A DNA stretch of 64,000 bases from the NCBI GenBank assembly GCA_947593925.1, contig CANQDU010000002.1:62001-126000 (forward strand). The letters run 5' to 3'. The position numbers and the translations under genes were made by a program. Below are positions 18,539 through 64,000 of the stretch, in pieces. Positions within the stretch are counted from its first letter, which is position 1, and each line of letters starts with the position of its first letter. Source of the stretch: an uncultured Clostridia bacterium. Lineage in GTDB: Bacteria > Bacillota > Clostridia > Oscillospirales > JAAYOS01. Below the pieces are notes generated by a model, which was given only the letters and a program-made list of their open reading frames with translations, searched no databases and had not been told where the DNA came from.

Positions 18539-19633
18539 ATGGGTAAATCATCAGGTGTAATTTATATTCTAACAAATCCGTCGTTCCCTCAATATGTAAA
18601 GATCGGCTATGCCGATAATGTGGAAACGCGGTTAAAACAACTGAATAACAGCGAGTGCATTCCTTTTGCTTTCCGCATTTACGCCACATACGAGGTTGAG
18701 GAACGTTTGACGGATTTGAAGCTCCACGCATTGATCGACCAGCTCAATCCGAACCTACGGTCCATTGACAATGTGGACGGCAAAAAGCGTATCCGTGAGT
18801 TTTACGCCATGGCTCCAGAACAGGCTTACTCTATACTCGAAACGATTGCCGTGCTTGGCGGTCGTAAGGACAGACTCCATCTGTACGATCTCTCCGCAGA
18901 AGAGAAAAAGAGTGAGAATTTGGCTCAGGAGATCGAGGAAGAACACATTGAGCGGATGTCCCCATTCGCCTTTTCCAAGTGCAATATTCCGATTGGCGCG
19001 GTAATCACATTCTTCAATCAGGGCAACGACAATTCGGGTACGCAATGCACGGTTGTGGATGATAAGACGGTAGAATATCAGGGACGGAAATTATCGCTCT
19101 CCGCCCTTGCCACCGAGCTTACGGGTAGTAAATGGGGCGTTGCCGGCCCACGTTATTTCAAGTATAACGGCGAGTGGCTGAACGATTTGCGCGCAAAAGC
19201 AGAAGGTCGCAAAGTCTCCTCACGCCTTGATGACGTGTGGATCCTTCCTTGTAACCCGAATTATTACGATATTATCGCTGCTTTTGACAACCTTGATGTG
19301 ATTGAGTGGAGTCAGTCTACCAATATCACCGTAGGCGACACGGTGTACATATATGTCGGTGAAAAAAACAAATCCATTATGTTTAAATGCGAAGTTGTCG
19401 CTGCCGATCAGTATGGCAACCGGTCAACTGATGATTACCCTTATTACAAGAAGTTAACAAAAGATCCCGATGCCCGCTATATGAAACTGAAGTTGATCGA
19501 AAAATATCCTGTTGGGATGTATCCGCTAAAGGAACTTAAGGAAAACGGTCTTGCAAGTGTTCAGGGGAGGAGCAAGGCAACCGTGCAGTTAATGAAGTAT
19601 TTTGAAAAACAAAAAATGTTAGCGGCACTTTAA
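18539..19633 (+). CDS. GIY-YIG nuclease / RAMA-like / EVE-like protein (putative modified-DNA restriction enzyme)
   Basis: A 364-residue protein, visibly AT-richer than its neighbours. Residues 1-105 match the T5orf172/Mug113 branch of GIY-YIG nucleases: VIYILTNPSFPQYVKIGYA, with a central Arg in VETRLKQL. Residues about 150-220 look like a RAMA/DUF4357-type domain (VEYQGRKLSLSALATELTG, then YFKYNGEWLNDLR), a module linked to modified-DNA recognition. Residues about 230-355 resemble an EVE/PUA-like domain (VWILPCNPNYYDIIAAF, then GDTVYIYVG), a family that can bind modified bases. The combination suggests cutting of foreign modified DNA. There is no methyltransferase next to it. GTGGGGT precedes ATG 18539. 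Domain assignments are by eye. Confidence 0.75.
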   Translation: MGKSSGVIYILTNPSFPQYVKIGYADNVETRLKQLNNSECIPFAFRIYATYEVEERLTDLKLHALIDQLNPNLRSIDNVDGKKRIREFYAMAPEQAYSILETIAVLGGRKDRLHLYDLSAEEKKSENLAQEIEEEHIERMSPFAFSKCNIPIGAVITFFNQGNDNSGTQCTVVDDKTVEYQGRKLSLSALATELTGSKWGVAGPRYFKYNGEWLNDLRAKAEGRKVSSRLDDVWILPCNPNYYDIIAAFDNLDVIEWSQSTNITVGDTVYIYVGEKNKSIMFKCEVVAADQYGNRSTDDYPYYKKLTKDPDARYMKLKLIEKYPVGMYPLKELKENGLASVQGRSKATVQLMKYFEKQKMLAAL

Positions 19634-19825
19634 AGCAATGAAAGATTTTTGATACTAAACAGTTATAACAGATGGTCGCCCTCTAAAGAACGGACTCCAT
19701 ACGATTCATAAATGTCAAATCGGGCTTTTGGTGAGACATATACCACTGAATCCATCATTAATGAATCGTTTTGCTGCAGTAGGTCTACCTATTCCGGAAG
19801 AATAATCAGGGATACACCCGAAAGA

Positions 19826-19863
19826 AACAGACATACCCGGTCTATAAACCGGATATGTCTGTT
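19826..19863 (-). terminator. Terminator of the PocR-AraC regulator gene
   Basis: A 16-bp stem (19826-19841 with 19848-19863) around a six-base loop. The single non-Watson-Crick pair is G-U wobble only when read on the minus strand, and the minus strand continues TTTCTTTC, so it terminates the leftward AraC transcript. Confidence 0.75.
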
Positions 19864-19899
19864 CTCATTTGCAGCACCCTGCTTGGTAGCTGCCCTTTA

Positions 19900-19953
19900 T
19901 CAGTACTGTGTTCGATGTTGTTTTATCGAAAGCTGCCGGAAAGTGGCGGCCAT
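19900..19953 (-). CDS. Possible 17-residue small ORF downstream of the AraC gene
   Basis: On the minus strand, AAAGGAG followed by seven bases and ATG opens a frame reading MAATFRQLSIKQHRTQY and a stop, three bases after the AraC stop codon and just before the terminator. Spacing to the ribosome site is good. It is too short to call on statistics; it may be a chance ORF or the stub of a decayed gene. Confidence 0.25.
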   Translation of the reverse strand: MAATFRQLSIKQHRTQY

Positions 19954-62790: not shown

Positions 62791-63150
62791 ATGAAGGGGA
62801 AAGCGTCCGGTGCGTTCAGAGACATAGCGATAGCGGCGGCGGCGGGTCTCGCCGCGAGCGCCGCGATAGGCGTCGTCGCGGCGCTTATCGGCATATTTGC
62901 GGGAATGAAGGGGAGCCTCGAAATTGCCAGAAGCATACTGTTCGTGCTCGGGGCGCTCGGTATGTTCATACTCGCCGGCGCGATTCTTGCCCGGGGCAAG
63001 AAGCCCAAATTCGGCGACGTCAAGGACGAGAAGAAGTGGCGCGAGAGGTTCCGTGTGCTCCGTCTGCCGGAGGTCGTAGGCATAGTCGGGGTGTTCATGA
63101 TAGCCGGAGGCTGCATTGTCGACGTCATATCCCGCGCGATACCGGTGTAA
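62791..63150 (+). CDS. Small membrane protein of unknown function
   Basis: A 119-residue protein with three hydrophobic segments: IAIAAAAGLAASAAIGVVAALIGIFAG, IARSILFVLGALGMFILAGAILA and VVGIVGVFMIAGGCIVDVI. A basic loop with KKPKFGDVKDEKKWRERFRVLR lies between the last two. No recognised motif. GGAGGTCACGT precedes ATG 62791. Transcription is probably from the consensus promoter at 62676, through the hairpin. Confidence 0.65.
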   Translation: MKGKASGAFRDIAIAAAAGLAASAAIGVVAALIGIFAGMKGSLEIARSILFVLGALGMFILAGAILARGKKPKFGDVKDEKKWRERFRVLRLPEVVGIVGVFMIAGGCIVDVISRAIPV

Positions 63151-63251
63151 AGTTTTGAAATCATCTCGCGGAGTTTGATACATCGCCGAAGAAAATAAGA
63201 TATATACGGTTGCAGAAAATGACAATACGCGGCCTTATGGCGGAGGGAAAT

Positions 63252-63887
63252 ATGAATATCACCATTGAAAAACTCTCAAAATCAAATATGGCGGACTTCT
63301 TTGATTTCTTTGACAACAGGGCTTTTTCAGACGGTTCGCCTTTTGCGCCCTGTTACTGCAACGAATTTTATCTGACGCCCGAGGAGGTCTGCGATGATAT
63401 AGGAAAGCGGACAGAGATGCTTGGCGGAGGATTTGAAGGTTTTACTCTTGCGTTAAAGGAATCCGCAAAAGAGCTTATAGAAAAAGGTATTATGCAGGGC
63501 TATCTCGCATACGAGGGCGGAATTTCCGTCGGTTGGTGCAACGCAAACGACAGACAGAATTATGTCCGCGCAGGTTCGTTTGTTTCCTACGAGAGACGTG
63601 ACGAGGATTACTATATTTCGGATGGCGAGCACGGAAAAGTAAAGTCTCTCGTATGCTTTGAAATTGCCCCGGAATACCGTGGAAAAGGTATCGCCAAGGC
63701 TCTTTTGCAGCAGGTCTGCAAGGACGCCGAAAGCGACGGTTACGAATTTGTCGAAGCTTATCCGCAGATGACCGAGAAATATTCCGTCCGTGATTTTGCG
63801 GGCCCGGAGGAGATGTACAGACACTTCGGATTTGAAGAAACGGAACGTCACGGAAGTACCGTCGTTATGCGGAAGAAATTATCATAA
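63252..63887 (+). CDS. GNAT-family N-acetyltransferase
   Basis: A 211-residue acetyltransferase. The acetyl-CoA pyrophosphate loop is CFEIAPEYRGKGIAKALLQQVC, and the last strand and helix contain FVEAYPQ. The N-terminal part FFDFFDNRAFSDGSPFAPCYCNEF is common in a Clostridia subgroup. The gene is AT-richer than the opp genes and has a different codon pattern (ATT, AAA, GAA), which suggests transfer from another lineage. GGAGGG sets ATG 63252. The acceptor is unknown. Confidence 0.85.
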   Translation: MNITIEKLSKSNMADFFDFFDNRAFSDGSPFAPCYCNEFYLTPEEVCDDIGKRTEMLGGGFEGFTLALKESAKELIEKGIMQGYLAYEGGISVGWCNANDRQNYVRAGSFVSYERRDEDYYISDGEHGKVKSLVCFEIAPEYRGKGIAKALLQQVCKDAESDGYEFVEAYPQMTEKYSVRDFAGPEEMYRHFGFEETERHGSTVVMRKKLS

Positions 63888-63906
63888 GACGGAACCGAAG
63901 GGTTTT

Positions 63907-63954
63907 ATATAAGACGAGCGGGACGGTCAAGCGACCGTCCCGCCCGTCTTATAT
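63907..63954. terminator. Bidirectional terminator after the GNAT gene
   Basis: ATATAAGACG (63907-63916) and CGTCTTATAT (63945-63954) flank GCGGGACGGTC/GACCGTCCCGC (63918-63928, 63933-63943). One A/C mismatch in the stem. It lies between the rightward GNAT gene and the leftward gene entering at 63971. Confidence 0.85.
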
Positions 63955-63970
63955 GAGTTTGAACTTTATT

Positions 63971-64000
63971 TTACTTAACGTCGAGCTCCATCACGAAGCC
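63971..64000 (-). CDS. C-terminal end of a minus-strand gene (partial)
   Basis: Read leftward, the frame gives GFVMELDVK and a stop at 63971-63973. It is the expected position of a gene converging on the terminator at 63907-63954. Only ten codons including the stop are in the window, so the product cannot be named. Confidence 0.45.
   Translation of the reverse strand, partial: GFVMELDVK

Follow-up and report, generated by a model that had tools for sequence, protein, structure and literature searches.

A GIY-YIG nuclease domain joined to RAMA and EVE-type domains in a recently acquired, probably defensive gene of a gut Clostridia bacterium

A 64,000-nucleotide stretch of DNA from an uncultured Clostridia bacterium (hereafter the window) contains a gene that, on account of its composition and predicted domains, raises the question of whether it encodes a modification-dependent nuclease and, if so, what company such an enzyme keeps. 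The initial annotation had proposed a fusion of a GIY-YIG nuclease with RAMA-like and EVE-like modules. A check of the open reading frame shows an ATG start and a product of 364 amino acids (Table 1). Its architecture as a T5orf172-type GIY-YIG domain, a RAMA domain and a PUA-like domain of the EVE type is confirmed by Pfam profiles, by AlphaFold2 models aligned with solved structures using VIA-align, and by homology of the C-terminus. All three of the proposed folds were recovered, the last being best worded as "PUA-like, EVE type". The AlphaFold2 model of the whole protein (mean pLDDT 75.7) and that of the C-terminal module folded alone contain the RAMA fold and the PUA-like, EVE-type fold whose absence would have told against the proposal. 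Comparison with the Pfam profiles was borne out in part, the T5orf172 profile matching the window protein and the RAMA (PF18755) and EVE profiles finding no match in it. Further, a search of NCBIfam with the 364-residue protein gave no match, and a sequence-only search of the PDB, run with the full-length protein and with the EVE profile, returned nothing credible.

Table 1. Features of the locus, in window coordinates (borders of the inserted segment are approximate)
Feature	Position	Strand	Evidence
GIY-YIG-RAMA-EVE gene	18539..19633	+	Open reading frame, Pfam, PADLOC PDC-S57, relatives, dN/dS ~0.05 where computable
GIY-YIG nuclease domain, T5orf172 type	18548..18853 (residues ~4-105)	+	Pfam T5orf172 and MUG113, Slx1 fold match
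RAMA domain	18962..19213 (residues ~142-225)	+	AlphaFold2 model, CcrM and MPND fold matches, weak DUF2924
PUA-like domain, EVE type	19229..19606 (residues ~231-356)	+	Separate model, 2eve and THYN1 matches, YjbR and HNH homology
Inserted segment	18434..19943		Alignment with G003, G001 and G004
Palindrome, 19-nt arms	19826..19863		Repeat search; in AT-rich downstream DNA

The N-terminal domain is the most readily recognized of the three. The T5orf172 profile (PF10544) matches residues 6-103 with an E-value of 1.2e-12 (48.7 bits against a curated cut-off of 20), MUG113 matches within the same domain (E 2.3e-8), and residues 1-121 of the model resemble the GIY-YIG protein Slx1 (6sei, Z 7.0). The motif residues are Tyr9, Tyr19-Val-Lys-Ile-Gly23, Arg31, Asp59 in the position of the Glu, and His63. 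Across 51 aligned proteins Tyr9, Gly23 and Arg31 are each present in all 51, Tyr19 in 48, and Lys21 and His63 are likewise invariant. The catalytic Arg/Glu pair of GIY-YIG enzymes, which the initial annotation had treated as decisive, is found here as Arg/Asp, with the metal-binding Glu position occupied by Asp (D59) in 50 of the 51 relatives; D59 is equated with Glu75 of I-TevI by alignment of the motif acid-x-x-L/I-H, which opens the helix following the third strand, and not by superposing the active sites. Glu is kept in five more distant T5orf172/GIY-YIG relatives that were aligned, which come from Bacteroidota, Alphaproteobacteria and Betaproteobacteria and include one Oscillospiraceae protein. 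Membership of the T5orf172 domain rests on profile and fold and stands despite the Asp at the Glu position. Because all but one of the relatives share this Asp and purifying selection acts on the gene (dN/dS about 0.05 where synonymous change is unsaturated), the domain is, judging from these sequence comparisons, probably an active nuclease with an unusual ligand, that is, an active-site variant and not a dead enzyme.

The central region, residues 142-225 of the model, aligns with the C-terminal domain of CcrM (6pbd) with a Z-score of 9.3 and with the RAMA domain of MPND (7ydw) with one of 8.3, the pLDDT over residues 141-220 being mostly 81-95. By modelled fold and by relationship this region may be assigned to the RAMA domains: one relative reaches the PF18755 profile at 0.0038, and DUF2924 appears in Pfam at residues 126-208 (2.8e-5), below the cut-off. 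Whether RAMA domains read m6A is in dispute, even in the case of MPND, as PMC11037411 discusses.

In the full model, residues 226-339 resemble EVE, YTH and ASCH domains. When folded alone (pLDDT 80.8), the C-terminal module aligns over 118 residues with 2eve, the entry from which EVE took its name, at a Z-score of 9.7, and with THYN1 bound to 5mC-DNA at 9.4; ASCH and YTH domains tie with these, so that fold alone cannot separate them. In sequence the module shares 36% identity with the C-terminal part of a YjbR protein (L065) and 32% with the N-terminal part of an HNH nuclease carried by a Staphylococcus plasmid. From their sequences both of these proteins appear to be of the EVE-fusion type, and the former fits the DUF1831-MmcQ/YjbR-EVE type of PMC7641849.

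As to the origin of the gene, the GC figures agree with its initial description as AT-rich, lying in GC-rich surroundings and followed by AT-rich non-coding DNA: it has 45.6% GC and a GC3 of 51.5%, as against about 59-65% and 79-86%, respectively, in five neighbouring genes, and the downstream non-coding DNA has 42%. In three genomes of the same genus (G003, G001 and G004), in which the genes flanking the site are 93-100% identical, the place of the inserted segment is taken by a variable, gene-free spacer of 330-560 bp whose DNA is unrelated and rich in repeats, and this empty site upholds the earlier suggestion of a recent acquisition. Relatives at an E-value of 1e-20 or better occur in 15 of 295 genomes of the order, the three-domain form in the window genome and one other only; given the same flanks without the gene in the three congeners and this sparse distribution, a vertically inherited core gene is rejected. 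The similarity of the DNA to other copies stops at the borders of the gene, and relatives extend to Spirochaetota (Treponema, L020) and Candidatus Scatousia (L015). This gene of a gut bacterium is, then, a real recent acquisition.

The vehicle was sought in several directions. There was no match in 50,697 phage records and none was confirmed in viral contigs, and the plasmid matches are confined to either GIY-YIG(-RAMA) or EVE, on which grounds a phage-borne or known-plasmid gene is rejected. Neither a target-site duplication nor direct or inverted terminal repeats were seen at the segment borders, and the stretch 19640-19950 was not found among the 294 other genomes of the order; with borders free of terminal repeats and downstream DNA absent elsewhere in the order, transposon carriage is rejected too. 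The palindrome in this downstream DNA is possibly a terminator. What fills the spacer at this site differs between the same-genus genomes (L085, L086, L087) and is repeat-rich. Elsewhere, the window has another AT-rich stretch at 63001-64000 (48% GC), with an acetyltransferase-like open reading frame at 63210-63887.

Relatives were found at 58 loci, about 20 of which encode the three-domain protein (67-92% identical), while most of the remainder encode a shorter, two-domain protein (about 220 residues, 36-65% identical). In a tree of the shared N-terminal part the long forms cluster, with 2 changes as against a shuffled mean of 14, which fits one or two origins of the fusion. Other domain combinations were also observed. 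In Akkermansia (L051:8001-8846, also L052 and L053) a GIY-YIG domain of the Asp form, 61-64% identical to that of the window over about 113-126 residues, is fused to DUF4268 in another domain swap that does not involve RAMA, and a frame at L022:7053-8567 joins the N-terminus of an AAA_15/SMC-like ATPase to a RAMA-EVE part, this fusion being either natural or an assembly junction.

The two forms differ in their genomic company. Of the 22 EVE-bearing loci, 16 have restriction-modification (RM) genes within 6 kb, compared with 8 of the 37 others (p 2.5e-4), the RM queries having been drawn from the long-form loci, such that counts for the other loci may be somewhat low. The association persists after near-copies are merged and fragments dropped (Fisher p 1.4e-5), PADLOC tallies for two genes on either side point in the same direction, and proximity by chance would be about 1% per random site, as estimated from the presence of one N6 methyltransferase and one C5 methyltransferase across 1.87 Mb. 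Pfam identifies the neighbours as HsdR (L002, L003, L012), HsdM or HsdS (L003, L010, L017), type III-like Mod and Res (L005, L009), Eco57I-type methyltransferases (L004, L007, L013) and N6_N4 methyltransferases (L008, L011). At 11 loci the gene immediately upstream lies on the same strand, at a distance of -14 to +42 nucleotides. Proteins 95-97% identical adjoin type III, type I-like, Eco57I and N6_N4 systems, and loci L005, L006 and L007 share an island border of 92% nucleotide identity and a nuclease gene of about 90%, while their RM cores differ. Because copies more than 95% identical adjoin different RM types, the EVE-bearing form looks like a portable companion of RM systems. The window protein has the predicted nuclease and reader modules of a type IV architecture, and the RM queries found no neighbour within 6 kb of the gene, which is an orphan. 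The initial annotation, in noting that the gene stands alone without a methyltransferase, was hence right for this locus, yet most three-domain relatives have RM genes with amino-methyltransferases nearby; the lone position is an accident of the window copy and not a property of the system.

Two further kinds of neighbour were noted at these loci. A protein kinase similar to PD-T4-6/Stk2 lies near the nuclease gene at L002:3380-4633 and L020:9341-10552, the two being 70% identical in very different hosts. Additionally, a protein of about 200 residues travels with the nuclease gene (L004:7351-8004, L005:9093-9704 and L011:9075-9696), preceding it in one locus and following it in the other two, with its frame split in two in L011.

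What such a protein might recognize is constrained by the methylation around it. The presence of near-identical proteins beside several RM types implies that the nuclease cannot be tuned to a single RM specificity or methylation site, and it makes the cutting of m6A DNA in general unlikely. Away from the window gene, the host genome encodes HsdMSR, a type I system, along with a C5-cytosine methyltransferase accompanied by a BsaWI-like nuclease. Since hosts and neighbours make m6A by way of type I/III and Eco57I-like methyltransferases and the window host has the C5 enzyme besides, plain m6A or m5C, whatever the sequence around it, is an unlikely trigger unless the host methyltransferases are silent, and a phage-type hypermodified base or a context-specific methyl mark is the more likely one. 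The host C5-cytosine methyltransferase (L090:3225-6235) adjoins two similar frames of 302 and 328 residues, the first of them BsaWI-like, which are possibly a duplicated restriction enzyme.

Taking these features together, we infer nuclease activity, the reading of a modification and phage restriction, and favour, with moderate confidence, a single-gene, type IV-like nuclease whose cutting depends on modification and which serves as a reserve for RM systems; CMoRE, the predicted EVE-GIY-YIG fusions and the wH-GIY-YIG enzymes, all described below, are its precedents. Both of its proposed readers, RAMA and EVE, would hold and inspect DNA, the EVE module most likely flipping the modified base into a pocket in the manner of known EVE and SRA readers, and would bring the GIY-YIG domain to the DNA, which it would cut nearby. 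The EVE-bearing form would spread as a one-gene add-on, lodging beside many RM types and catching phages whose modified bases evade them, whereas the window copy would have landed alone in an unremarkable spacer between genes. The defensive role claimed at the outset is supported by the listing of the family as a phage-defence candidate, and the gene is probably defensive. A more specific version, in which the protein is a mobile companion of many RM operons with an Asp-based GIY-YIG domain, requires both RAMA (for the DNA or adenine context) and EVE (for a cytosine-type modification) and responds to a phage-specific trigger and not to host methylation, is rather doubtful as a whole.

Three other explanations deserve consideration. 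The equal structural matches of the C-terminal module to YTH and ASCH domains could mean that it reads modified RNA, with the enzyme acting on RNA or R-loops during infection. This we regard as highly improbable: the sequence homology of the module points instead to proteins of the YjbR-EVE and HNH-EVE type, the MPND RAMA and CcrM structures were solved with DNA, and GIY-YIG enzymes are known as DNA nucleases. An accessory role alongside RM enzymes would have the protein cut unmodified or RM-damaged invading DNA, with contacts of RAMA and EVE to host methyl marks sparing self DNA. The tight and often overlapping neighbourhood with RM genes, including m6A-type methyltransferases, is in keeping with such a role, as is the association of RAMA with adenine methylation, both by name and through its close structural match CcrM, an adenine methyltransferase. 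However, near-identical proteins reside beside different RM types, by all of whose marks they are unlikely to be protected, and the window copy has no adjoining methyltransferase although its genome has type I and C5 enzymes elsewhere, which leaves this role unlikely.

About equally unlikely is that the change from Glu to Asp has left the GIY-YIG domain weak or dead, such that the protein merely binds modified DNA, for example as a block to replication or transcription, or acts as a regulator. The near-fixation of Asp where I-TevI has Glu75, set beside the distant T5orf172 proteins with Glu, lends this some weight, and Odn, a phage nuclease belonging to that Pfam family, needs the Glu at the position equivalent to D59, replacement of this Glu by Ala giving a dead enzyme (PMC8263062). 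Nevertheless, an acidic residue is always retained, alongside Tyr9, Lys21, Arg31 and His63, and purifying selection on the domain is strong, whereas a loss of catalysis usually frees such positions. A modification-dependent nuclease associated with RM systems remains our preferred reading, and the fixed Asp offers a direct test of how far the GIY-YIG active site tolerates change. Likewise, domain deletions could reveal the contribution of RAMA, whose reading of m6A is disputed, and the near-identical copies in type I, type III and Eco57I-type islands would provide a clean case of portable second-line defence against RM-evading phages.

Among known systems, the closest is the single-gene phage-defence candidate PDC-S57 of PADLOC, whose profile PDLC05043 matches residues 4-222 over positions 3-217 of 221 (E 3.2e-96). 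The GIY-YIG and RAMA part of the window protein is the part that matches; the PDC-S57 profiles have 212-245 positions and the match ends at residue 222, whereas the window protein adds an EVE-type C-terminal domain of about 125 residues, and this EVE-bearing form lies beside RM genes far more often. Two-domain GIY-YIG-RAMA fusions have been noticed as uncharacterized proteins and proposed as candidates for reading 6mA in type IV systems by the 2024 study that describes the wH-GIY-YIG enzymes as 6mA-dependent (PMC11037411); they share these two domains, but the EVE domain, the Asp active site and the RM neighbourhood are not described there. EVE-GIY-YIG fusions, one of them with MmcQ/YjbR between the domains, were predicted in 2020 to be type IV, modification-dependent enzymes (PMC7641849). 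These share the GIY-YIG domain and the EVE reader, but in the window protein it is RAMA that stands between them and not MmcQ/YjbR, and a search by term returned no mention of RAMA domains in that source.

CMoRE (PMC12923530, 2026) is likewise a one-gene GIY-YIG nuclease with a C-terminal modification sensor, a type IV enzyme acting on 5hmC/5ghmC DNA. Its catalytic residues, however, are Arg and Glu, its motif is GIYxY-YIG and its sensor is without known homologues, whereas the window protein has the motif VIYIL...YVKIG, Arg with Asp59, and RAMA and EVE as sensors, and so departs from CMoRE in both the GIYxY-YIG motif and the Glu. VcaM4I, an EVE-HNH endonuclease as cited in PMC11347163, also has an EVE reader fused to a nuclease, but the nuclease is HNH and not GIY-YIG, the EVE domain is N-terminal and there is no RAMA. 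A literature search on all three domain names returned no report of a GIY-YIG-RAMA-EVE triple fusion; it retrieved just one review, and the passages there set out no such protein. GIY-YIG-RAMA and GIY-YIG-EVE proteins are both predicted, uncharacterized classes, whose two readers are here joined in one polypeptide, and what the present analysis adds to the initial annotation is the plug-in association of the family with diverse RM islands and its Asp active site.
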